Origin: a virus
Length of the DNA: 41,280 nucleotides
Reading direction: 5' to 3' (one strand)
IMG/VR virus record: IMGVR_UViG_3300010885_047950
Span: 1 to 41,280 of that record
Part shown: piece after piece, positions 2,824-41,280 of the stretch
Layout: each line of letters starts with the position of its first letter
Numbering within the stretch: position 1 is the stretch's first letter
Translations under genes and position numbers: made by a program
The notes under the pieces: generated by a model
Database searches by the model: none
Seen by the model: only the letters and a program-made list of their open reading frames with translations
Told to the model about the DNA's origin: nothing

Positions 2824-4020
2824 ATGAATATTGTAAATACATTTCTGAAACTTACTAATAGAACGTATCCATACGGATATGAGGAAGAACTATTGGGATT
2901 TTTACCAGATGGCTATAAAACTGATGAAGATGGTAATCATTACTATGAAGTCGGTACTGGTAGCAAGACTATATTTGCTTGTCACTTAGATACAGCCTGT
3001 AAGAAGTCTGAAAAGGTTAAGCACGTATTTGATGGTAAATTTGTTAGAACAAACAAGCAAACAATATTAGGTGCTGATGATAAAGCTGGTATGAGTGTCA
3101 TTTTATATATGATACATAAAAATGTACCTGGATTATACTATTTCTTTATAGGTGAGGAAGTTGGTTGTATTGGTTCATCTGCTGCTTCAAAGAGAGTTGA
3201 TTTCTTTTCTAAATATAATCGTATTATATCTTTTGATAGACGTGGTACTACTTCAATTATTACACATCAATCATCAAAAAGAACTTGTTCTGATAATTTT
3301 GCTGAGGCACTATCTAAGGAGTATGCTAAATCTAATTTACCCTTGGAAAAAGATGATGGTGGTGTTTATACTGACTCTGCTGAGTTTAAGACAATTATTT
3401 CTGAGTGTACTAATATTTCGGTTGGTTATTATAAAGAACATACAACTGAAGAGCACCAAGATATTAGATTCTTGGAAGACCTAGCAGAAGCATCTGTTCG
3501 TGTTGATTGGGAGTCATTGCCTGTTTCAAGAGATCCTTCAAAGACAGAGTGGAAAAGTAGTGACTATTACTATTACGGTGGTGATAGAAATTATACCCCA
3601 AAAAGAAACTCTAAGGGAAACTGGAGAGCAAGAAATAATTGGGTATGGAGTGCAGAAAATGATGATTATGTATTTTCTACTAAGTCAGTTGAAAAGAAAT
3701 TTAATGATGACGACTTCTATGGTAATCTTTATGACACAAAAAAGAAAGGTAGAGAGTTCTATAATGACTTAGAAAATCAATTAACAGTTGATGACCTGCT
3801 GGGTGTTGCTGAAGTAAAAGATGGTGCTTTCCTAAAGGACTCTAGCCAGACTGACTACTATAAAGGAGTTAGAAAGATGTTTTTGGATGATACAATTTCT
3901 AATGATGAATTAGAGATAATTAAGTTACAGTGTTTAAATATGGCTGACAAAGCCGATAGTGATTTCTATAAATATATGAAACTATCAAATTCAGAAGATT
4001 ACTATTCTGAGATTACTTAG
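2824..4020 (+). CDS. M20/M28/M42-type zinc peptidase-like protein (paralogue A)
   Basis: 398 aa. The N-terminal 235 residues carry the ligand set of co-catalytic zinc aminopeptidases/deacylases: H54-x-D56 (FACHLDTA), D85 (GADDKAG), the E111-E112 pair (FFIGEEVGC), D138 and H206. The C-terminal 160 residues are a separate charged, Tyr/Asp-rich region unlike standard peptidases. A homologue lies at 36477-37664 with the same catalytic core but a different tail. Such enzymes hydrolyse peptide or acyl-amino-acid bonds; the phage substrate is unknown. Expression is probably early, from the promoter at 2752-2783. The 3' end overlaps the convergent endonuclease gene by 8 nt with no terminator between them. 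Confidence 0.8.
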   Translation: MNIVNTFLKLTNRTYPYGYEEELLGFLPDGYKTDEDGNHYYEVGTGSKTIFACHLDTACKKSEKVKHVFDGKFVRTNKQTILGADDKAGMSVILYMIHKNVPGLYYFFIGEEVGCIGSSAASKRVDFFSKYNRIISFDRRGTTSIITHQSSKRTCSDNFAEALSKEYAKSNLPLEKDDGGVYTDSAEFKTIISECTNISVGYYKEHTTEEHQDIRFLEDLAEASVRVDWESLPVSRDPSKTEWKSSDYYYYGGDRNYTPKRNSKGNWRARNNWVWSAENDDYVFSTKSVEKKFNDDDFYGNLYDTKKKGREFYNDLENQLTVDDLLGVAEVKDGAFLKDSSQTDYYKGVRKMFLDDTISNDELEIIKLQCLNMADKADSDFYKYMKLSNSEDYYSEIT

Positions 4021-5272
4021 TCTTAAATCTATCGATTATATCGGTAGTTGATATAACTTCATCGGGAGCGTTCTTAATTTTAGAACTCTCAACATTATGT
4101 GATATCTTATACCTTCTACCAATTATGTCTTCTATTTTACAAACGGTTAGCATACCATTATACCAATATTCGATAATTATCAAATCCCCTTTTTTATAAA
4201 AATTGCTCATTTCAATTATGAATGAGTAATTTTCTTTTGTATGTCTATTTATCTGTCCTCGACTTCTATTAGAAGTTGTCATGTGTTGTGTGTAATCATC
4301 AATTAGTCCTAAGTATAATAGCTTATGATATATTGTGTTTTGTTCTCGTATAAATGTTGTATAATCATTGTAGCTCATGCAGACTTTTTTAATTTTTTCT
4401 ATACTAAGTATATTACTAAATATATCAGACTTTATTATTTCTATATTAGAAATATCTTTCGATTCTATATTCATATGCAGAGCTTCATTTATGATACTTA
4501 AATTAAGTATAAGCTTAGACGATATGTTATTAACATATGTGTCGAAGCTCTTATTTTTCATGCCGGTCTCATTAATGGTTATTAGAGTTATTCCCTTTCT
4601 CTCACATAGATGTCTTTTAAAGTCAGAACCATTATTGTGGTAGTACTTACCATCATATTCAAATCCCAATTTTTCATCCTCAAATAATATGTCAATTTCA
4701 TATGGTGATATAGCCTTTCGATTATTATAAGATATTTTCTTACCAGTTATCTTTTCTAAGATGCTTTTAAGTATTAGTTGAGGTGTGCTATAAGATATAT
4801 TTAACATATGCTTGGTGACATCATCTATCTTTCTATTCATATATAACCAGGCATATAGGTTTGGATCCGAAATCTTCAATTCCTGTTTAGTTACATATTT
4901 TAGACATTCTTTCTCTATAAAGTCCTTCGTATATTTCTTACTCCTCTTTAGTCCAAGTCTTTGGATCATTGTCTGTATCGAATTAACTGTTCTGTTCATC
5001 TTACTTGATAGTTCGTTATTACTCAATATGTCAAAATTTTCAGATAGGTAGTCGATATCTTGTTTAGTCCACAAATCATCACCCCATTTGGCATTTATTC
5101 TACTAGTATTAATTGACTTGATGTAACTAACATCTTTTTTTAATTCTAGTCTAATTGCCTTTGCATCTACTGCTTTTTTTGTCTTATTTAATAATATAGC
5201 AATATCATCATTAGATTTTATTGGATAATTATCTTTTAGAAATTTAATTTCATCTTCCGTCCAATTTAACAT
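4013..5272 (-). CDS. Homing endonuclease: two SANT/Myb-like HTH repeats plus PD-(D/E)XK (EDxHD/Vsr-like) nuclease
   Basis: 419 aa. Residues 1-45 and about 65-115 are two Trp-containing SANT/Myb-like helix-turn-helix repeats (WTEDEIKFLKDNYP, WTKQDIDYLSENFD), which would bind DNA. Around residues 165-245 is a Vsr-like nuclease core: SPYEIDILFEDEKLGFEYDG, then YYHNNGSDFKRHL and ITLITINE, the arrangement of the EDxHD homing endonucleases such as I-Bth0305I. A C-terminal tail (about 350-419) contains a KKGDLIIIEYWYNG segment resembling the tail of the protein at 38807-39379. It converges on the peptidase gene with an 8-nt overlap. The nuclease class is well supported; target site unknown. Confidence 0.82.
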   Translation of the reverse strand: MLNWTEDEIKFLKDNYPIKSNDDIAILLNKTKKAVDAKAIRLELKKDVSYIKSINTSRINAKWGDDLWTKQDIDYLSENFDILSNNELSSKMNRTVNSIQTMIQRLGLKRSKKYTKDFIEKECLKYVTKQELKISDPNLYAWLYMNRKIDDVTKHMLNISYSTPQLILKSILEKITGKKISYNNRKAISPYEIDILFEDEKLGFEYDGKYYHNNGSDFKRHLCERKGITLITINETGMKNKSFDTYVNNISSKLILNLSIINEALHMNIESKDISNIEIIKSDIFSNILSIEKIKKVCMSYNDYTTFIREQNTIYHKLLYLGLIDDYTQHMTTSNRSRGQINRHTKENYSFIIEMSNFYKKGDLIIIEYWYNGMLTVCKIEDIIGRRYKISHNVESSKIKNAPDEVISTTDIIDRFKTK

Positions 5273-12593: not shown

Positions 12594-13656
12594 ATGATAT
12601 TAAATAATCAAATAGATATAGTGTTGAATGGGTCCAATATTTCTAAATATAAAGAGAAGTATGGTAATGATATTAAAGTAAATACTAAAATAACAGTTGA
12701 TATCTCAGATATACCTGACTATTCGAGTGTGATAATTGATTGTAAATGCGAGATATGTGGTGTTGAATCTAGAATTTCAAGGGCTAATTATACCACAAAT
12801 ATTAAAAATGGTGGGTACTATGGGTGTAGAAAATGTAGTAGATTAAAGTCAAAAAAGACATGCTTTAGTATATATGGTGTAGAAAATGCTTTTCAATCAG
12901 AGGAAGTTAAGAATAAGATAAAGTCAAAAAATCTAGAAAAATATGGTGTTGAAAATACTTTTCAATCAGAGGAAATTAAGAATAAGATAAAGTCAAAGAA
13001 TCTAGAGAAATATGGGGGTGGTGTGTATTCACAAACTGATGATTTTATCAATAAGTTTATAAGAACCAATTTAGAAAGGTATGGTGTTAAATATCCGATG
13101 CAGTTGGATATTAACAAAGAGAAGTCTATAAATACTACTTTAAAAAAGTATGGAGTTCCTTACTACTCACAGACTGATGAGTGTAAAGAAAGAATAATAA
13201 CTACTAATTTGAAAAAATATGGTGTTTCTAATTATGCTAAGTTAGATGAGTGTAAGGATAAAATGAGGAATACTAATTTGGAAAGATATGGGTTTCCTTA
13301 TGCTATACAATCTAATCTATTTCTAAATAAGGCATTAAAATGTAAGATTAAACAATATAATGATGATTTATATTATCAGGGATCTTACGAAAGGGATTTT
13401 TTGGAAATATGTGATAAATTAAATTTATTACAGCTAGTTAAAAGGGGGTCCTAGTATAAAATATGGGGATTGTGTTTATTTCTCTGACTTTATATTTGAT
13501 AATAAACTAATAATTGAAATTAAATCCAGATACACTTATGATTTACATTTGGATAAAAATTTACTAAAAATGAAATCTTGTGTAGATAATGGTTATGATT
13601 TCTTGTTTATAATTGATAAGGATTATATAGAATTTCTAAATTTTGTATTATATTAG
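12594..13656 (+). pseudogene. Homing endonuclease with YGV repeats, frameshifted in a G5 run
   Basis: The first frame gives 286 aa: an N-terminal unique part, a zinc ribbon (C52-x2-C55, C78-x2-C81), then about seven repeats of some 23 residues, each beginning with (K/R)YGV and followed by a QSEEVKNKIK-like helix. It stops at TAG 13452-13454 just after GGGGG at 13444-13448. Removing one G restores a continuous frame to 13656 (GPSIKYGDCVYFSDF, then LIIEIKSRYTYD, LKMKSCVDNGYDFLFI), which supplies the missing PD-(D/E)XK nuclease half with its E-x-K. The gene is therefore broken, or carries a homopolymer error, or uses a frameshift. It lies immediately 3' of the giant virion gene. Confidence 0.82.
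12873..13010 (+). repeat. Tandem duplication of a 69-bp YGV repeat unit
   Basis: Units 12873-12941 and 12942-13010 are nearly identical at nucleotide level (a handful of substitutions), whereas the later protein repeats are diverged. This points to recent internal expansion by slippage or unequal exchange. Confidence 0.8.
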
Positions 13657-16301: not shown

Positions 16302-17054
16302 TTACTTAATTGGCTTATCATTATTATCCGATATATTGTTAGGTCCACCAGCACCTCTAGATATGATTAAATTGTTATACCACCTTGTTCTCTTAGGGTT
16401 TACAAAATTCCCATCACTATCATTTAACTGTCTAAATGCTGGGTAATATGTATGTACCTCAAATGAGCAGGTTAGTTTAATAGAATTGTCGGATGCCATA
16501 TTTGACTCTCTTGACATTTCTATTTGATTAGTATCTGGTAGTATCAGCATTGCATCTATGTTCATATAGTTGTGCTCAAAATACATGTATCTGTATAACC
16601 AAAGTGTATTTATTATAGACTGACTACACTTAAAGGAGTCAATCTCACTATTTAGCAAAACTACTAAATCATACTTAACTGATATAGGAACGGCTCTTAT
16701 CTTAGTTAGCATTTTCTTTACCTCTGCTTCATCCTCAACAACCATTCTTAGCCAGACATTTGGGTTTGACATTTCATCACTTTTTATATCGAATCCTGTC
16801 ATGGTTAAATGACCTCTTGGTATAACATCAGTGTTTAGCTCAACATATCTATTGTTTGATACAACATCATCCGTAAATGAATCTAATAAGAATCTTTCAT
16901 TTCCGGTCATTGAGTAATAGAAGGGTACATTTACATCAATTGTACCTGATGTAAATTTGTTTTTCCACTTTACCTCACCTTCGAGTGTATCTAATACACA
17001 TACAGTTAAATCCCTGAAAAAACAATCCTCAAAATTAGATCTTTCACCTATCAT
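16302..17054 (-). CDS. Probable virion structural protein (unassigned)
   Basis: 250 aa, beta-rich and soluble, with segments such as TVCVLDTLEGEVKW, VPFYYSMTGNERFLLDS, YMYFEHNYMNIDAMLILPD and SIKLTCSFEVHTYYPAF. The overall impression is of a T4-like neck or tail-associated structural protein, but I cannot name the counterpart. Its ATG overlaps the TGA of the upstream homing endonuclease gene (ATGA, 17051-17054), so its translation is coupled to that gene. The Asn/Asp/Gly-rich C-terminus looks disordered. Confidence 0.55.
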   Translation of the reverse strand: MIGERSNFEDCFFRDLTVCVLDTLEGEVKWKNKFTSGTIDVNVPFYYSMTGNERFLLDSFTDDVVSNNRYVELNTDVIPRGHLTMTGFDIKSDEMSNPNVWLRMVVEDEAEVKKMLTKIRAVPISVKYDLVVLLNSEIDSFKCSQSIINTLWLYRYMYFEHNYMNIDAMLILPDTNQIEMSRESNMASDNSIKLTCSFEVHTYYPAFRQLNDSDGNFVNPKRTRWYNNLIISRGAGGPNNISDNNDKPIK

Positions 17055-17968
17055 AGTTTATAATTATTTTTAATTGAATCTTTGTAATCCGATTCCCATA
17101 TTGATATTATCTTATATCCGATTTTTTCTATTTCCATTTGTCGAGTAATTGTTCTATTATATAGTTCTCCAAACGTTAGCCCATTTACTCTATTAATATC
17201 ATTCTTATTATATACTTTTGGATTTCCATGCCAGAAATCACCATAAAATTCATATACCAATTTATTATTAATATCAACACCATCCACAAAAAATTTACCT
17301 ATTTTGAACTGTCTGTAATCCTTTGGTATATTATAAGTATCTAACCAGATATTTTCTATCTTACCTCCATTTCGATTACAATTTCTACAACCTTGTCCTC
17401 TCAAATGTGCATTAGGAGACATTTGAAAAACACCATGTTTTTCACATATAATAGAAACTTTTTTATTATAATTAAAATCGCAGATTAATGAATAATCATA
17501 TCTGTTATTATGTAATAAATTAGCTTTATATATGAATTCTTCATTTGTTAATTTACCTTTTCCAATTGAATTACATTTTGGACATCCGCCAGTCTTTGAT
17601 TCTAGATGTTTCATAGGAGATTGTTGAAATTCTATATTGTGTTTATTACATTTAATTATAACTTTATTCCTCATCTTAACATAATCCACTTTAGAATAAT
17701 CATACAAGTCACCGAACTTATTTTGGAATTCTGATATTATATCAGATATTTTATTTTTTCTTCTAGATGATCTCTTTATCAAACCACAATCTGGGCACCC
17801 ACTTTTATAATGGGAATTGGGTACTTGTAAAAACTCACCATGTCGTGGACAAAGTATCAATACTTTTGTTATATCGTTAATATAGCAAACTAAGGAATAA
17901 TCATATTTATTATTATGTATAATATTTGCTTTTTCCACAAATTGTTGTAATGTAAGTTTCTTACTCAT
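17051..17968 (-). CDS. Homing endonuclease with three zinc-ribbon repeats and EDxHD-type nuclease
   Basis: 305 aa. Three repeats near residues 8-60, 76-134 and 145-197 share the plan HNNKYDYS - strand - CPRHGEF - H - GCPDC, a zinc-ribbon-like DNA-binding module found repeated in phage endonucleases. The C-terminal 90 residues carry the nuclease: FKIGKFFVDGVDINNKLVYE, FYGDFWHGNP and IEKIGYKIISIWESDYK, the Vsr/EDxHD pattern (D, E, WH, E). The TTAATATATA motif lies 4 nt before the ATG at 17968. The stop overlaps the start of a structural gene (ATGA), so the endonuclease is embedded in a virion-gene transcript. Family call is confident; target unknown. Confidence 0.83.
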   Translation of the reverse strand: MSKKLTLQQFVEKANIIHNNKYDYSLVCYINDITKVLILCPRHGEFLQVPNSHYKSGCPDCGLIKRSSRRKNKISDIISEFQNKFGDLYDYSKVDYVKMRNKVIIKCNKHNIEFQQSPMKHLESKTGGCPKCNSIGKGKLTNEEFIYKANLLHNNRYDYSLICDFNYNKKVSIICEKHGVFQMSPNAHLRGQGCRNCNRNGGKIENIWLDTYNIPKDYRQFKIGKFFVDGVDINNKLVYEFYGDFWHGNPKVYNKNDINRVNGLTFGELYNRTITRQMEIEKIGYKIISIWESDYKDSIKNNYKL

Positions 17969-23857: not shown

Positions 23858-24592
23858 ATGGCATATGTATATAAACATATCAGATTAGATAAAAATGAGG
23901 TATTCTATATTGGCATTGGCTTAAAAGATACAAATAATTTTAAAAGAGCTTATGAAAAGAGTGGAAGAAATGACTTTTGGAAAAAAGTAATAAAATTAAC
24001 AAAATATAAAGTAGAGATAATACATGAAAACCTTTCTTGGGATGAAGCATGTCGAAAAGAAATAGAATATATTAAACTTCATGGGAGAAGAAATTGTTCA
24101 ACCGGGACATTAGTAAATCTTACAGATGGGGGTGAAGGAAGTAATGGCTATATAGTAAGTGATGAAGTTAAGTTAAGATTGCAAAAAATAAATAATTGTA
24201 AAAAAGTTTTACAATTTGATATGAATATGAATTTAGTAAATTCATATTTGTCATTGAAAGAAACTTCTAGAATAACCAAGTTCTCATTGGGTAATTTAAG
24301 TAAGGCATGTAATGGTGTATTAAATTATGCTTATGGATTTATATGGAGGTTTGAGTCTTCTAAATATATAGAAAATACAAGCAAAAAATCAATAAAACAA
24401 AAAAGGCGAGTTGCACAAATGGATAGTGAAGGTAATGTAATAAAAATATATGATTCTGTATCGCAAGCATCTACAGAATGTAATATACCAAGAACTTCCA
24501 TATCTAATTGTTGTTTTGCCAACTTAAATGAATTAAAATATTCCGCTTATGATTCTAAGTGGAAATTCATTGATAAAATTAATTACATATAA
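23858..24592 (+). CDS. GIY-YIG homing endonuclease with NUMOD DNA-binding repeats
   Basis: 244 aa. The GIY-YIG domain spans residues 1-95: a variant YVYKHI first strand (3-8), FYIGIG (16-21), the basic AYEKSGRNDFW helix, the Glu in EIEYIKLHG and the NLTDGGEGSNG ending. Two NUMOD1-like repeats follow (about 118-166 and 186-238), each with a VLQFDMNMNLV-type strand pair and a helix, typical of DNA-binding tails of freestanding phage homing endonucleases. It starts one base after the small HTH gene and ends 2 nt before the portal gene, so it is inserted tightly next to an essential head gene. Confidence 0.88.
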   Translation: MAYVYKHIRLDKNEVFYIGIGLKDTNNFKRAYEKSGRNDFWKKVIKLTKYKVEIIHENLSWDEACRKEIEYIKLHGRRNCSTGTLVNLTDGGEGSNGYIVSDEVKLRLQKINNCKKVLQFDMNMNLVNSYLSLKETSRITKFSLGNLSKACNGVLNYAYGFIWRFESSKYIENTSKKSIKQKRRVAQMDSEGNVIKIYDSVSQASTECNIPRTSISNCCFANLNELKYSAYDSKWKFIDKINYI

Positions 24593-26350: not shown

Positions 26351-26382
26351 AAAAAGACTGTATTTTTATACAGTCTTTTTTC
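26351..26382. terminator. Bidirectional intrinsic terminator after the portal gene
   Basis: AAAAAGACTGTAT / ATACAGTCTTTTT stem with a T4 loop and A/T runs on both sides. It lies within the 3' end of the convergent gene at 26366, so both genes end here. Confidence 0.87.
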
Positions 26383-26773
26383 TTTTATCTAATAGCTCCC
26401 TTGATTTAGATGGATTATCTACTCCGAATCTATCTAATGTAGTTTTTTGTATGCGCTTTTTTATCTCTTTGCTTTGTATTGGATATTCAACTCCGTGATT
26501 TAATTTAAGTGTCTTTTTTCGTTTTGATTCTGAGCACTTTCTACATTTATACTCACCCCATTTATTTCCATATTTGATGTAGTTTTTAAACATAACATCT
26601 TTAGTAGCACCACATCCGTCACACTCACATTTTATCATTTGATGACTACCTGATGAAAGTAATTCAATTGGTATAAGTAAATTATCACCTACTTCTATAT
26701 CATATCCTAAATTAACATAATAAGAGTGGTTATTTAAATTAATTTTTATCGATATTTCTCTGGTTAGTATCAT
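26366..26773 (-). CDS. Truncated YGV-repeat homing endonuclease relative (no nuclease domain)
   Basis: 135 aa. It resembles the N-terminal part of the endonuclease at 12594: a beta-rich leader, a zinc ribbon (CECDGCG ... YKCRKCSE), then two repeats (NHGVEYPIQSKEIKKRIQ, RFGVDNPSKSRELLDKR). It ends abruptly inside the terminator stem, where the homologue continues for five more repeats plus a nuclease. It is thus either a degenerate remnant or a minimal DNA-binding protein. It sits directly between the portal gene and the prohead gene on the opposite strand, a typical position for a decaying homing gene. Confidence 0.75.
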   Translation of the reverse strand: MILTREISIKINLNNHSYYVNLGYDIEVGDNLLIPIELLSSGSHQMIKCECDGCGATKDVMFKNYIKYGNKWGEYKCRKCSESKRKKTLKLNHGVEYPIQSKEIKKRIQKTTLDRFGVDNPSKSRELLDKRKKTV

Positions 26774-30992: not shown

Positions 30993-31008
30993 TTTAATAT
31001 ATATTAAA
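30993..31008 (+). promoter_or_regulatory. Palindromic TTAATATATATTAA element overlapping the endonuclease start
   Basis: The palindrome TTTAATATATATTAAA runs directly into the ATG at 31008, with no spacer. A promoter here could only give a leaderless or internally starting transcript, so the motif may instead act in translation. Confidence 0.45.
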
Positions 31009-32870
31009 TGATAATAGAAAGATTTGAGAAAATAGAGAAAATATTGAATGGCTCATCTACTAGACTAAGAGAGTCATTTTTTATAAAAAATTATATTGAG
31101 TTGTATAATGAAATTAGTTCAGTAGAGCTTGATATTACATTTAAGGAGAAATTATGGTATTGGGTAAATGGTATATCAACTCAATATACATGTAAATGTG
31201 GAAATACTACCACATTTAACAAGAATTGGTTAGATGGTTATAGGAAGTATTGTTCTACAAAGTGTTCACAGCTGGATATATCAACTAATGAAAAAAGGAA
31301 AATTACTAATCTAGAGCGATATGGGGTTGATAATGTTGCTAAGTCTGATACAGTAAAAAGTAAAAAAGCTAATACTAATATTGAAAAGTATGGCTGTATT
31401 TCATCATTTCAGAATGAAAAAGTAAGGGAAAAATGGAGAAATAATCTAATAGATAAATATAATGTTGAACACATATTTCAACTGGATTCTGTTAAGGAGA
31501 GTATTAGAGATAAAAGGAGTAAACGAACAAGTACTAAAAAAATCAATAGTGAAATAAAAAAACCGCATCATACAAAGAGTGATGATTTTAAATTAAATAC
31601 AAAAAAGGCTAATAATATAAAATATGGTGTTGACTGGTATATACAAAGTGATGAATTTAAGGAAAAGAGTAAGAGTAATTCTTTGAAAAAGTATGGAGTT
31701 GATCATTATTCAAAGACAGAGGAATTTAAGGAAAAGTTAAAATCAACAAGTTTAGAAAGATATGGTGTTGATAATTACTCAAAAACTGATGAGTGTAAGG
31801 AGAAGATAATCAAGATAAATTTAATAAAATATGGGGTTGATAACATATCCAAAAATGAAGAGTTTAGATATATGAACTTTGATAATTCAAAAAGTGAATT
31901 TTATATTAAATATATTGGAAACTCAATAAGTCAATATAGATGTGATATGGGAAAGGATCATTTTTTTGAAATAGATATAGACAATTATATAAAAAGAAAA
32001 GATAGTATAATTTGTACTATTTGTAATCCAATTGGTGATCATGTATCTATAGCAGAAAGTAAATTATATGACTATATAAAATCAATATATGCTGGTGAGA
32101 TAATATGTGGGTATATGAATGAGTTTGAGATTGATATTTATCTACCCGAATTAAAATTGGGATTTGAATTCAACGGATTATACTGGCATTCTGATTTGTA
32201 TAAGAAGAAGGATTATCATATAAATAAAACAAATCATTTTAAGAATAAGGATATTCGTATTATTCATATATGGGAGGATGATTGGTTGTATAAGCAAGAA
32301 ATTATTAAAAGTCAGATAAGTAGTTTATTTAGTATTAATAAAAAAATATTTGCTCGTAAATGTTTTGTTAGTTCAGTTAGTGTCGAAGATGCTAGGAAAT
32401 TCTTGGATGATAATCATATTCAGGGATTTGTGAATAGCTCAGTGAAGATAGGGTTATATCAAGATAATAAATTGGTCAGTATTATGACGTTTGATAAATT
32501 TGAAGGCAGAAAAAGGATGATGAATAATGAATGGAATCTAAATAGGTTTTGTACTCTATTAAATACTACTGTTATTGGTGGGGCTTCTAAACTATTAAGT
32601 TACTTTATTGATACTAATAAAGTAACTCGTATTATTAGCTATGCTGATATTGATTGGTCAATTGGTAATATGTATTATAAATTAGGCTTCAATAACACAT
32701 TTGAAAGTGGTCCAGATTATAAATATGTAATTAATGGTAGAAGGGTGCATAAGTCTGGTTATAAGAAATCAAGATTAAATACTGAGCTTACCGAATCAAT
32801 GGAAATGAAAAGGAGAAATATTTACAGAATATACGACTGTGGAAAAATTAAGTTTGAAAAGTTATTTTAA
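31008..32870 (+). CDS. Large homing endonuclease: zinc ribbon, YGV repeats, EDxHD nuclease and GNAT-like C-terminal domain
   Basis: 620 aa. Residues about 62-90 form a zinc ribbon (YTCKCGN ... YCSTKCSQ). Residues about 100-290 hold at least seven (K/R)YGVDN-type repeats. The nuclease domain (about 348-440) shows AESKLYDYI, FEIDIYLPELKLGFEFNGLY, WHSD and IRIIHIWEDDW, the Vsr/EDxHD pattern. About 443-600 is a further domain: ARKCFVSSVSVEDARKFLDD, IGLYQDNKLVSIMTF, LNRFCTLLNTTVIGGASKLL, IISYADIDWSIGNMYYKLGF, resembling a GNAT acetyltransferase fold. It lies between the capsid terminator and another terminator, as an independent insertion next to gene 23. Confidence 0.82.
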   Translation: MIIERFEKIEKILNGSSTRLRESFFIKNYIELYNEISSVELDITFKEKLWYWVNGISTQYTCKCGNTTTFNKNWLDGYRKYCSTKCSQLDISTNEKRKITNLERYGVDNVAKSDTVKSKKANTNIEKYGCISSFQNEKVREKWRNNLIDKYNVEHIFQLDSVKESIRDKRSKRTSTKKINSEIKKPHHTKSDDFKLNTKKANNIKYGVDWYIQSDEFKEKSKSNSLKKYGVDHYSKTEEFKEKLKSTSLERYGVDNYSKTDECKEKIIKINLIKYGVDNISKNEEFRYMNFDNSKSEFYIKYIGNSISQYRCDMGKDHFFEIDIDNYIKRKDSIICTICNPIGDHVSIAESKLYDYIKSIYAGEIICGYMNEFEIDIYLPELKLGFEFNGLYWHSDLYKKKDYHINKTNHFKNKDIRIIHIWEDDWLYKQEIIKSQISSLFSINKKIFARKCFVSSVSVEDARKFLDDNHIQGFVNSSVKIGLYQDNKLVSIMTFDKFEGRKRMMNNEWNLNRFCTLLNTTVIGGASKLLSYFIDTNKVTRIISYADIDWSIGNMYYKLGFNNTFESGPDYKYVINGRRVHKSGYKKSRLNTELTESMEMKRRNIYRIYDCGKIKFEKLF

Positions 32871-36341: not shown

Positions 36342-36491
36342 ATGTTAACAAAACTAGAATTAAGTCAGATTAAAGAGAAATTCATCGTGGATTATGCAAA
36401 GAAAAAAGGCTGGAACCCAAATAATTTGAGCCCCAGCCAATTGATTGAAATTATTAATGATAGTAACTATCTTAACTTACATACCGGCTAA
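36342..36491 (+). CDS. 49-aa hypothetical protein
   Basis: A short gene, ATG 36342 to TAA 36491, preceded by TTTATATATAACAAT. The product contains VDYAKKKGWNPNNLSPSQL followed by IEIINDSNYL, a compact two-helix layout with a GWNPNNLSxxQL turn that I have the impression of seeing in other phage hypothetical proteins. It overlaps the 3' end of the convergent peptidase gene by 15 nt. Coding is supported by the clean frame, the promoter-like leader and a conserved-looking motif; function unknown. Confidence 0.6.
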   Translation: MLTKLELSQIKEKFIVDYAKKKGWNPNNLSPSQLIEIINDSNYLNLHTG

Positions 36492-37664
36492 ACAGGTTGG
36501 TATGCTATCCAGTGTATATCTAAGGTGAGCAACTGGAATAACATCAAAGTTATTCACAAAAGCCATTAGGTCACTTCTATTACCCACATATTCATTTATG
36601 GTTTCACCTTTTTCTAAGCACCAACAAGAGGTGCCGTCCCAAGTTATCTTTTCTATAACTCTACCTTGCTTATTTAAAGCTTCGGTTATTAACCTCTTTT
36701 CGGTTTCTATCCACTCTTTAGATATATAAGCCTTTGTTCTAATACTATCTCTTATAACAAAAGAGTAGTTTTCATCACTGAAATGAAGTCCTAAGTCTCC
36801 CTTTTCTCTTACTGGTTCATCTTCTAAATCATCCCAGTCCCAGCAGTCCCAACCACCTCCGTGGAATGGGCTCCATGCGGTTGCCGGGTCTCTCTCAACA
36901 GGTAATGATTCCCAGTCTACCTTAACAACAGCATTACACAATTGGTATAGATATTCTATATCTTGTGCTTCCTTATGTGTGTGTTCGTTATAATAACCAA
37001 CTGATATATTTGTACACTCTGGAATAAAAGTCATGAATTGTGCGGAGTCAGTCAATACTCCAGTATCATCTGGGCGCATATTCAATCCACTCTTATTTAA
37101 CTCTTTGCATAAAGAGAGAGCAAATTCATCAGAACAACAGTTGCCATAGAATTGATCTGTAATAACTGATGTAGTTCCTCGCCTATCAAAGGAAACTACC
37201 TTCTTGATATTTTTTAATTCATCAATGTGATATATTTCCTTTTCCATATCTGATGCTAAATCAGATGAACCAACACAACCTACTTCTTCACCGATGAAGA
37301 AATAATATAATCCAGGAACTTTCTTCTCAATCATAAATAAAGCAACAACTACACCAGCTTTATCATCTGCGCCTAATATAGTTGTACCATCACTCATAAT
37401 ATATCTACCATTAGCTTTAAGAACATAGCCAGCAGATAAATCACAAGGTTTGTCGTGAAAAGTGTGTCTAACGGGTCCAAATTCTTTATTTGCTGTATCA
37501 AGATGACAAGCAAACATTGTGGAATAGTTATCACCTACTGATAGGTAATAATTGCCGTATTTATCTTGCTTATATCCTTCAGGTAGCATATTTTCTAAGT
37601 ATGCCTCAGTACCGTATGGATATGTGTACTTTGTAAGTTGTAAAAACTTTCTTTTAATTCGCAT
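36477..37664 (-). CDS. M20/M28/M42-type zinc peptidase-like protein (paralogue B)
   Basis: 395 aa, homologous to the protein at 2824-4020. It keeps all ligands: H54-x-D56, D100 (GADDKAG), E126-E127 (FFIGEEVGC), D160 and H228. Shared blocks include TYPYG at the N-terminus, VPGLYYFFIGEEVGCVGSS and VDWESLPVERDP. It has an extra 15-20 residues before the GADDKAG motif and a different C-terminal domain (260-395) with a Trp/Gly/Asp-rich linker (FHGGGWDCWDWDD). Expressed from a textbook host-type promoter. Probably a metal-dependent aminopeptidase or amidohydrolase; substrate unknown. Confidence 0.8.
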   Translation of the reverse strand: MRIKRKFLQLTKYTYPYGTEAYLENMLPEGYKQDKYGNYYLSVGDNYSTMFACHLDTANKEFGPVRHTFHDKPCDLSAGYVLKANGRYIMSDGTTILGADDKAGVVVALFMIEKKVPGLYYFFIGEEVGCVGSSDLASDMEKEIYHIDELKNIKKVVSFDRRGTTSVITDQFYGNCCSDEFALSLCKELNKSGLNMRPDDTGVLTDSAQFMTFIPECTNISVGYYNEHTHKEAQDIEYLYQLCNAVVKVDWESLPVERDPATAWSPFHGGGWDCWDWDDLEDEPVREKGDLGLHFSDENYSFVIRDSIRTKAYISKEWIETEKRLITEALNKQGRVIEKITWDGTSCWCLEKGETINEYVGNRSDLMAFVNNFDVIPVAHLRYTLDSIPTCLAGM

Positions 37665-38791: not shown

Positions 38792-38819
38792 CAAATATAC
38801 GAATTTTTAACTTATACAA
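38792..38819 (-). promoter_or_regulatory. Bacteroidetes-type promoter
   Basis: On the minus strand: TTG (38819-38817), a 17-nt spacer and TATATTTG (38799-38792), 17 nt before the ATG at 38774. It overlaps the end of the gene at 38807. Confidence 0.65.
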
Positions 38820-39379
38820 GTTCTTAATTTACCGTATCTCATAAGAAGCTTATACATCTTATCATACTCAGTATCTATATCAGCTATTTGTTTCCCCACC
38901 CATTTCTCATTATTTAGGTACTCAACTATCATTCCTTTTCTAAGTTCTGATTTATTAGACAGAAGCTTATATCTTCTTTGTTCTATGAATGAAAAAGATA
39001 ATCCATTATATACATATGTTGTATCACTTTCATTTAACTCATAGATAACTGGCTTTACTAATTTCTCGGACCCATCATATGATATTTTCTTTGGAAGACT
39101 CTCATTCTTATATTTAACTATAAGAGAGTCTTGATATAACTCATCAAGAAGATAAATGGCATCCTTTCGTAAAGCATTATTCTCATCATTACTTATTCCT
39201 ATGAATGAGTTACCATGTATACCGTTTCGATATCCAGTGATAGGTATAACTGTGTAGTCTTTTGAGTATAGTATTGAGCATGCCTTATCACATGAGACTT
39301 TATTTTCCTTTATGGAATTTGACTTTTTCTCAGGTGAGATTATTAAATATGATATATTACGATCTTCTAAATTAAACAT
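38807..39379 (-). CDS. Hypothetical protein
   Basis: 190 aa from ATG 39379 (MFNLEDRNIS). This start is preferred over the upstream ATG 39418 because an exact TTAATATATA motif ends 5 nt before it. Beta-rich, with VIPITGYRNG, a helix (NALRKDAIYLLDELYQ) and a C-terminal segment RKGMIVEYLNNEKWVGKQIADI that resembles the tail of the endonuclease at 4013-5272 (KKGDLIIIEYWYNG ... IEDI). No enzymatic family recognised. Confidence 0.62.
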   Translation of the reverse strand: MFNLEDRNISYLIISPEKKSNSIKENKVSCDKACSILYSKDYTVIPITGYRNGIHGNSFIGISNDENNALRKDAIYLLDELYQDSLIVKYKNESLPKKISYDGSEKLVKPVIYELNESDTTYVYNGLSFSFIEQRRYKLLSNKSELRKGMIVEYLNNEKWVGKQIADIDTEYDKMYKLLMRYGKLRTCIS

Positions 39380-39384
39380 CGAAG

Positions 39385-39394
39385 TATATATTAA
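39385..39394 (-). promoter_or_regulatory. TTAATATATA motif (decides start of 38807-39379)
   Basis: An exact match on the minus strand, 5 nt before the ATG at 39379. Confidence 0.5.
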
Positions 39395-39448
39395 AAAACT
39401 AAATGTCGAATTCCTCATTTAACTTAGAAAATAGGGAAGACTGCATAA

Positions 39449-39463: not shown

Positions 39464-40147
39464 ATGAGAAAAGAATGTTCTAGATGTAGTGATATTAAAG
39501 AATTAGAGTACTTTCATATAGCTATTCGAGGTAAATTAGGAAGATGTTCAATTTGTAAAGAATGTCGGAAAATCGATGGGTTAAACAACCGTTTGAAAAA
39601 CAAGGATAGTATAAAGGAATATAAAAAAACATATTATGAGAAAAATAAAAAAGAAATCTCCGATAAGAAAAAGGATAAAAAGGCATGGAAGCTTTATTAT
39701 CTAAATAATAAGGAAAAAGTAAGTGTTGCAAATAAGAAATATAGAACTCTAAATAAAGATATTATAAATGAAAAAAGTAATTATTATAGAAAGTGTAGAA
39801 GAAATGATGATATATTATATAGAATAATTACTAGTATTAGGAGTTCAATTGGATGTAGTTTAAGATATAATGGTTATTCGAAAAAGTCGAAATCTTATGA
39901 GATTCTAGGTTGTACCTATGAGGAATTTAGTGAGTATTTAGAATCCAAATTTGAGGAGTGGATGTGTTGGGATAATTATGGTAAATATAATGGTGAATTA
40001 AACTATGGGTGGGATATGGATCATATTAAGCCAATATCCTCTGCTAATTCGGAGGAAGAAATTTTAAAATTAAATCACTTTACTAATTTCCAGCCACTTT
40101 GTAGTAAAGTAAATAGAGATATTAAAAAAAATAAAATTCTTCCTTAA
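39464..40147 (+). CDS. HNH homing endonuclease
   Basis: 227 aa. An N-terminal zinc site (C5-x2-C8, C28-x2-C31-x2-C34) is followed by a very basic helical middle rich in Lys/Asn/Tyr. The HNH core is at the C-terminus: WDMDHIKPISSA with D186-H187, H205, N208 in NFQPLC, and N217-R. The layout (zinc finger, basic linker, HNH) is common among freestanding phage homing endonucleases. Its last 26 nt overlap the convergent polymerase-like gene, so the two may form a linked accessory module at this end of the window. Confidence 0.85.
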   Translation: MRKECSRCSDIKELEYFHIAIRGKLGRCSICKECRKIDGLNNRLKNKDSIKEYKKTYYEKNKKEISDKKKDKKAWKLYYLNNKEKVSVANKKYRTLNKDIINEKSNYYRKCRRNDDILYRIITSIRSSIGCSLRYNGYSKKSKSYEILGCTYEEFSEYLESKFEEWMCWDNYGKYNGELNYGWDMDHIKPISSANSEEEILKLNHFTNFQPLCSKVNRDIKKNKILP

Positions 40148-41280
40148 TTTTTTTGTCAAAAATTACCTCAATAATTTCCCTATATTGAATAGGGACTATT
40201 ATACTATCATGTATTGTAATTACTTTTATCTCTGGATATAAATCCATTATAGTTTTAACTACTTGTTTGAAAATAAAGTTAGATTCTGACCTTTGTAGGT
40301 AATGTGATAAAGATCGGTAGTCACCCATTTCTATTTTATAGAGTCTAATAAAGTTATAAATAGTTGGAAATAACTTTAAAAAATTATCACTATCCTTATT
40401 TTTATAATTTTTTCCAAAAAATACCTTATATACCATTTCCTTAGCTAGCTTCTTTTCACTGTAGATAGGAAATCTATCCATTATATATTTATAAAAATTA
40501 CCATTTAGTGTCAGTGTTTTAAATAAATCAAATTCTTTTCTATCTACAATATGAATGTCATTTTCATATATTAACTTACATAGAAATAAAGGCTGAGAAT
40601 TTGATATGTCTTTCTCAAAGGTTTCTTTACCATCTATTAAAAGACAATTCTTTCTGATGAATGACTTAAGTATTGTAAAATTTGTATGTAATCTACCATA
40701 GTCACAAAAGTGATAAAAGATATGACTATCATTTATACATTCAACACTATATTTATTTTTATTGTAGATATCATTATCTTGACTCGTATTATCTAAATAA
40801 AATATAGATTTGGAAATATCAATATCAACATGAAATAAGTCATTTATTAGCTTCTTTCTAATATTTGTGTCTATATTATTTGTTTGATTATTATCAATAT
40901 TACATATAGCTGCTCTATACTTCTTTAATAAAACTCTATCTGCATTCTTATAACGATTGATATTACCATTTATTATATGTTTGTTTATAGAGTAAACCCG
41001 TGCATTCTTGCCTTTCTGGTGATTTCGAACAAGGCTTATTATGTCATTATCAACTAAATATGATATATAGTAATTATACTTATCACCATACTTTTCTTTA
41101 AGAATTATCGATGATAAGTTGAAATTATTATCTTTCTTGAAGTAATATTTTAAGAGTAGATTATGTATTATATCTATAATATATGCTGTTTTAATTCTAG
41201 CATTTTTATATTGTATATATGTTTCTGTTGAGATAGGCTCCAATGCTTCTGGTAGAAACTGTAAGCTATACTTTTTCTTC
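40122..41280 (-). CDS. Compact winged-helix plus family-A polymerase-like (PolA/ssRNAP palm) protein, 5'-truncated
   Basis: The frame is open to the right edge, so the N-terminus is missing; at least 385 residues are visible. Numbering from the TTG at 41243: about 40-92 resembles a winged helix (SSIILKEKYGDKYNYYISYL ... ARVYSINK). YGRLHTNFT (182-190) looks like the PolA 'TGRL' motif. KDISNSQPLFL (211-221) fits motif A with D212 as the metal ligand. KKLAKEMVYKVFFGK (264-278) fits motif B (K...NFG / K...YG). VITIHDSIIVP (341-351) fits motif C (HDE in DNA polymerases, HDS in T7-type RNA polymerases). No exonuclease domain is visible and the fingers would be minimal. It could be a DNA or RNA polymerase or primase-like replication protein. 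Confidence 0.65.
   Translation of the reverse strand, partial: KKKYSLQFLPEALEPISTETYIQYKNARIKTAYIIDIIHNLLLKYYFKKDNNFNLSSIILKEKYGDKYNYYISYLVDNDIISLVRNHQKGKNARVYSINKHIINGNINRYKNADRVLLKKYRAAICNIDNNQTNNIDTNIRKKLINDLFHVDIDISKSIFYLDNTSQDNDIYNKNKYSVECINDSHIFYHFCDYGRLHTNFTILKSFIRKNCLLIDGKETFEKDISNSQPLFLCKLIYENDIHIVDRKEFDLFKTLTLNGNFYKYIMDRFPIYSEKKLAKEMVYKVFFGKNYKNKDSDNFLKLFPTIYNFIRLYKIEMGDYRSLSHYLQRSESNFIFKQVVKTIMDLYPEIKVITIHDSIIVPIQYREIIEVIFDKKIKEEFYFF

Follow-up and report, generated by a model that had tools for sequence, protein, structure and literature searches.

The window analysed here is the whole 41,280-nucleotide stretch of a viral record (IMG/VR IMGVR_UViG_3300010885_047950). It covers a T4-like structural and replication region, in which the portal, the major head protein, PhoH and the clamp loader were matched. 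Close to its end, an ORF on the minus strand (40122-41279), confirmed as a genuine gene, encodes a putative compact polymerase with an N-terminal winged helix. There are 385 visible codons, the 5' end being truncated by the window end at 41280. Full-length homologues mostly have 404-411 aa (the range being 387 to 424), which means that the window copy lacks about 20 N-terminal residues; this stretch is poorly conserved and variable across the family. The small size given in the initial annotation is in keeping with these lengths, and the polymerase motifs that it quoted (GRLHT, KDISNSQP, KEMVYKVFFGK and IHDS) are all present and conserved across 100 family members. In the residue numbering used here, D224 and D358 correspond to D212 and D346 of that annotation. 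IMGVR_UViG_3300010157_000191 encodes a protein identical to the compact polymerase of the window.

An HNH/endonuclease-VII-like gene (39464-40147, plus strand; phrog_1035, E 5.5e-10) lies between the polymerase gene and cluster 1, a conserved downstream neighbour of about 190 aa and unassigned function (38807-39418, minus strand). The HNH and polymerase ORFs overlap tail to tail, as originally described, by 26 bp. The gap between the polymerase gene and cluster 1 is 704 bp in the window and in an identical IMG/VR contig, L018, but no more than 207 bp in 72 of 77 loci. This marks the HNH gene as a local, lineage-specific insertion, and it was rejected as a functional partner of the polymerase. 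At four loci (L027, L044, L081 and L085) the same gap is 1150 bp and holds an unrelated 320-aa glycosyltransferase-like ORF, indicating that the spot downstream of the polymerase takes insertions repeatedly. Inspected by eye, the HNH gene is one of the window's homing-/endonuclease-like genes, which are found amid structural and replication genes at 4013-5272, 12594-13454, 17051-17968, 23858-24592, 26366-26773, 31008-32870 and 39464-40147. The window also encodes a paralogous peptidase-like pair (2824-4020, plus strand, and 36477-37664, minus strand) with the common motifs LYYFFIGEEVGC.GSS and LGADDKAG.

Residues 128-385 of the compact polymerase (40125-40898, minus strand) are predicted to form a family-A polymerase palm and fingers (model pLDDT 87, with structural matches). 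The AlphaFold2 model, built with 13 family sequences, has a pLDDT of 87.2 and a pTM of 0.77. When residues 128-384 were compared by VIA-align, the matches included many family-A chains, among them Pol theta (Z 14.6, rmsd 3.0, 241 residues aligned), T7 DNA polymerase (Z 14.3) and Bst (Z 14.1), as well as yeast mitochondrial RNA polymerase (Z 13.7, 240 residues); the rmsd to the Pol theta, T7 and Bst DNA polymerases was 3.0-3.3. With the Z values tied, a DNA polymerase cannot be told from an RNA polymerase by fold alone. Foldseek against the PDB alone gave no E value below 0.001. In BFVD, the top match was a marine phage protein of 403 aa with 48% identity, named putative DNA polymerase I; weaker matches included Aeromonas phage and Rheinheimera phage Barba31A proteins of 434-450 aa. 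The fold assignment is based on the VIA-align Z values and on these BFVD hits, similar phage proteins that are themselves uncharacterised. Neither an exonuclease nor a recognised thumb is present in the model, in which the polymerase match spans only residues 128-384. The palm of family-A or single-subunit RNA polymerase type first proposed from the sequence is thus borne out by the structural matches, a palm fold being present in the predicted structure, and the protein is almost certainly a family-A-type palm enzyme with a winged helix.

The motifs, all read from the minus strand, fall in this region. The GRLHT block (residues 195-199, 40683-40697) corresponds to the GR block that precedes motif A in family-A enzymes. 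Motif A, DISNSQP (residues 224-230, 40590-40610), includes the catalytic D224, Q229 at the steric gate and the invariant P230. Motif B, the O helix, has the form [RK]x3Kx3[YF]x3F (residues 276-289, 40413-40454; K276, K280, Y284 and F288), and motif C, HDS (residues 357-359, 40203-40211), contains the catalytic D358. Conservation was assessed in 100 members from distinct loci, 85 of phage or huge-phage type and the other 15 encoded on a plasmid or in bacterial chromosomes. Nine residues (R196, R209, D224, P230, Y263, K280, P305, E332 and D358) are invariant in all 100; H357, Q229 and S359 are each found in 99, and 97 have R or K at position 276. Conservation across members from distinct loci argues that the motifs are not due to chance. 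An hhalign comparison with Pol I pairs the catalytic residues D224 and D358 with the Asp residues of motifs A and C, Q229 with the Glu of the steric gate (E710), K280 with the Lys of the O helix, and Y284 and F288 with F762 and Y766. R196 takes the place of Pol I R668. The bulky gate residue and the aromatic at the F762 position appear to resemble those of DNA polymerases.

Searches of Pfam, PHROGs, NCBIfam, PADLOC and the PDB by phmmer and hmmsearch, alignments included, gave no match for the family, and the DNA_pol_A model (PF00476) did not match the compact polymerase directly. Profile-profile comparison by hhalign was more informative, with unrelated neighbour families used as controls (scores 14-26). 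The palm matched divPolA2, a divergent phage polymerase, with a score of 100.1 (probability 97.7, E 1.3e-12). Against a 37-sequence Pol I profile the score was 47.8, with an E value of 7.7e-5 for a single comparison and a probability of only 62; this match reached significance only at 100 and 37 sequences and was non-significant with small alignments. A five-sequence alignment of T7-like RNA polymerases scored 26.4, which is control level. On these profiles, the palm is nearest to divPolA2 and next to Pol I.

The HDS of motif C had been read as a hint of a T7-type RNA polymerase. That hint is not supported by the profile comparison, and the selectivity positions also differ: where T7 RNA polymerase has Gly542, Met635 and Tyr639, the phage proteins have Gln, Tyr or Phe, and Phe. 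T7-type RNA polymerase was rejected as the closest kin and retained as a functional rival. The T7-type and mitochondrial single-subunit enzymes share the palm fold and HDS with the compact polymerase, but are of about 880 aa, compared with about 400 here. The family-A enzymes (Pol I, T7 DNA polymerase and Pol theta) share the palm and fingers, the motif A Asp, the O helix [RK]x3Kx3[YF] and the HD of motif C. The compact polymerase departs from them in having no 3'-5' or 5'-3' exonuclease, recognised thumb or PF00476 match, in the Gln that replaces the steric-gate Glu, in HDS in place of HDE, and in the added winged helix.

divPolA2 was described as a PolA-type palm without an exonuclease or canonical thumb, encoded beside PolB in barbaviruses and in ICP1 and its relatives; its N-terminal globular domain has no detectable similarity, and it was considered that the enzyme might serve as an RNA polymerase or as a DNA polymerase in repair (Yutin et al., 2024; PMC11348598). 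This related divergent polymerase, although already published, was missing from the initial annotation. In the full-text literature searched, it is named only in that paper and its preprint. Our comparison set comprised the representative AUR84708 and five relatives. The compact polymerase is like divPolA2 in being a stand-alone PolA-type palm protein (divPolA2 is of about 430 aa) with an N-terminal globular domain and no exonuclease or canonical thumb, encoded in addition to a regular DNA polymerase (here PolB in 15 of 16 records and PolA in the remaining one). The palm profile alignment begins at the GRLHT block. The N-terminal domains, compared as sequence profiles only, gave a score of 18.8, against 10-13.5 for controls. 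As the palms match and the N-termini do not match significantly, the compact polymerase is best described as a winged-helix variant related to divPolA2, and we judge that it is not a wholly new kind. The two differ in gene neighbourhood, which is variable for divPolA2 and fixed for the compact polymerase in huge phages; in motif A DIxNSQP and motif C HDS, which vary in divPolA2 and are near-uniform here; and in the occurrence of the compact polymerase in Bacteroidota integrative elements as well. An IMG/VR scan with a divPolA2 protein found no relatives.

divPolA1, from Flavobacterium phage immuto and relatives, is again a divergent PolA found alongside a regular DNA polymerase, but it is nearer to Pol I itself: a mixed profile of divPolA1 with the second PolA-like genes of LR756511 and L288, which it resembles, matched Pol I with an E value of 5e-33. 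It also carries an inactivated 3'-5' exonuclease remnant, where the compact polymerase has its winged-helix N-terminus. The accessible part of a 2026 survey of bacterial DNA polymerases (PMC12926913) defines groups PolA1-3 and PolA1-like, and does not describe a winged-helix polymerase group.

The winged-helix domain of the window copy comprises residues 1-127 (40899-41279, minus strand). Modelled alone with AlphaFold, it has a pLDDT of 92.4 and a pTM of 0.86, and its structural neighbours are winged helices; the winged-helix fold noticed in the initial annotation is therefore well supported in the predicted model. The top neighbours are the RepA initiator domains of pSK41-type plasmids, 4pql and 4pt7 (Z 7.4, over 90 residues, and 7.2), followed by Orc1/Cdc6 (Z 6.8-6.4) and, only slightly lower, MarR- and Fur-like proteins. 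RepA itself has no polymerase domain. Because its Z value is tied with those of ORC/Cdc6 and other winged helices, kinship with replication initiators is only suggested by the model.

At least 131 IMG/VR loci encode the compact polymerase (pattern and tblastn scans). In an annotated phage collection it was found in six records, all of them huge phages of 595-735 kb. Al-Shayeb et al. (PMC7162821) assigned all of their genomes of more than 634 kb to the Mahaphage clade, with predicted Bacteroidetes infection. The gene is single copy in all 16 related huge-phage records, the 595-735 kb genomes included. Gene order is also conserved: of 85 loci, 77 have cluster 1 directly downstream of the polymerase gene and 73 have cluster 2, of about 440 aa, on its upstream side. 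Cluster 2, for example L019 6591-7904, is strongly conserved (61-68% identity across lineages) and had no match in Pfam, PHROGs or the PDB; it looked ligase-like by eye, a reading that no tool backed. In the main huge-phage lineage, the polymerase gene is surrounded by genes of unknown function and a glycosyltransferase gene, outside the replication cluster.

PolB was matched in 15 of the 16 related huge-phage records, which agrees with the earlier view of an extra polymerase beside a family-B replicase. In the exception, LR756511, no PolB was found, and a PolA-like gene overlaps the compact polymerase gene; no such partner gene was found in the remaining 15. With PolB or PolA always alongside, the compact polymerase adds to the replicase and does not replace it, and it was rejected as the phage replicative polymerase. 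The order of compact polymerase followed directly by a second PolA was seen in LR756511.1 at about 394000-396366 (L102 9572-12018) and in L288 1522-6532, where a DnaB-type helicase gene comes next. This second PolA is of 428-433 aa, with a PF00476 match and no recognised exonuclease domain. T4 gp61-like primase matches were found in 7 of 12 related records, which suggests that the replisome may obtain its primers without an additional enzyme and weakens the idea that the compact polymerase is needed as the only primase. As a separate observation, the family-B polymerase is apparently split across two genes in LR745206.1 (130634-131950 and 233919-234311) and also in G002, G003, G004, G009 and LR756504. 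An N-terminal-part match (profile positions about 18-177) is separate there from a C-terminal-part match (about 127-452), the halves being roughly 90-280 kb apart.

In a profile search of 395 genomes of the phylum Bacteroidota, 14 encode distant relatives, which are about 430-690 aa long. The winged-helix domain is common to element and phage proteins (hhalign E 5e-14). A related tyrosine recombinase is present at 7 of the 14 fetched bacterial loci, and further neighbours include small, excisionase-like HTH genes (HTH_17 among them) and AAA_24, DUF3871 and type I or III restriction genes. Two IMG/VR records apparently from isolate genomes, L278 and L279, have the same layout with Pfam-confirmed integrases. 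No recognisable replication protein was found among ten other genes of these elements. One Hymenobacter plasmid carries a homologue together with an ordinary replication initiation protein. At L135 1480-3540, the compact polymerase of an element has an in-frame C-terminal GIY-YIG and NUMOD1 homing-endonuclease domain. A tree sets the main huge-phage clade (44 rows, 100/100) apart from the element sequences, with other phage lineages placed at different points; with caution over long branches, this suggests at least two transfers of the gene between elements and phages.

Tentatively, we favour an auxiliary DNA polymerase that acts in the initiation or priming of replication, a role to which we give somewhat less than an even chance. 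The winged helix would bring a non-proofreading family-A-type polymerase to particular sites, possibly origins, on phage or element DNA, where it would most probably begin, or help to begin, genome replication; using dNTPs, it would make or extend the first stretch of DNA, and the phage PolB holoenzyme would then take over. In the small Bacteroidota integrative elements, it stands out as the candidate replication protein. This proposal is supported by the palm and fingers, the invariant catalytic residues and the Pol I profile match, in which motifs A, B and C all line up. A DNA polymerase is further suggested by the steric gate, occupied by a bulky Gln and not by the Gly of T7 RNA polymerase, and by the aromatic residue that aligns with Pol I F762. 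The likeness of the winged helix to replication initiators, tied as its Z values are, and its presence in the element proteins are consistent with initiation, as are the helicase and PolA genes that follow in L288, the PolA overlap in LR756511, the grouping of integrase, HTH_17 and polymerase in the elements, and PolB in nearly all huge-phage records. Against it stand the gp61-like primase matches, the position of the gene outside the replication cluster in the main huge-phage lineage, a winged-helix Z of 7.4 that is within the range of common arrangements, and the Hymenobacter homologue that coexists with an ordinary initiation protein.

The same architecture could belong to a small single-subunit RNA or primer-RNA polymerase, whose winged helix reads a promoter or origin while the palm makes transcripts or origin primers. 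The tied match to mitochondrial RNA polymerase and the HDS of motif C agree with this, and Yutin et al. (PMC11348598) weigh the same role for divPolA2; the control-level T7-like profile score, the residues at all three selectivity positions and the lack of a recognised T7-type promoter-binding N-terminal domain make it an unlikely reading, if a serious one. A repair, gap-filling or translesion DNA polymerase with no special origin role, its winged helix binding damaged or branched DNA, would explain an enzyme without exonuclease or full thumb that is accessory to PolB or PolA, and was likewise proposed for divPolA2 (PMC11348598). Such a role is hard to motivate in integrative elements that are small and otherwise gene-poor, or to reconcile with a fixed single copy in very conserved gene order, and we think it rather improbable. 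The tandem overlapping genes of LR756511 and L288 raise the further idea of a two-part polymerase formed with the adjacent PolA-like protein, or else of recruitment to a non-replicative purpose such as counter-defence. That the compact enzyme keeps all of its catalytic residues, and that the other 15 records lack the partner, leave this with little to commend it.

If the compact polymerase does act in initiation, it may represent a new kind of replication starter, although we regard this as doubtful: origin recognition and a family-A active site would be combined in one small protein, the sole replication protein of Bacteroidota elements, which the largest phages captured as a core gene. The family is absent from the searched Pfam, PHROG, NCBIfam and PADLOC libraries and yet is single copy in every tested huge-phage record, up to 735 kb. 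It extends the enigma of divPolA2 with a recognisable DNA-binding domain. Retention of an extra polymerase, despite PolB, a clamp loader and, mostly, a primase-like gene, would imply a step in huge-phage replication beyond the known replisome, and the small Bacteroidota integrative elements may offer a bench-sized system in which to find it.
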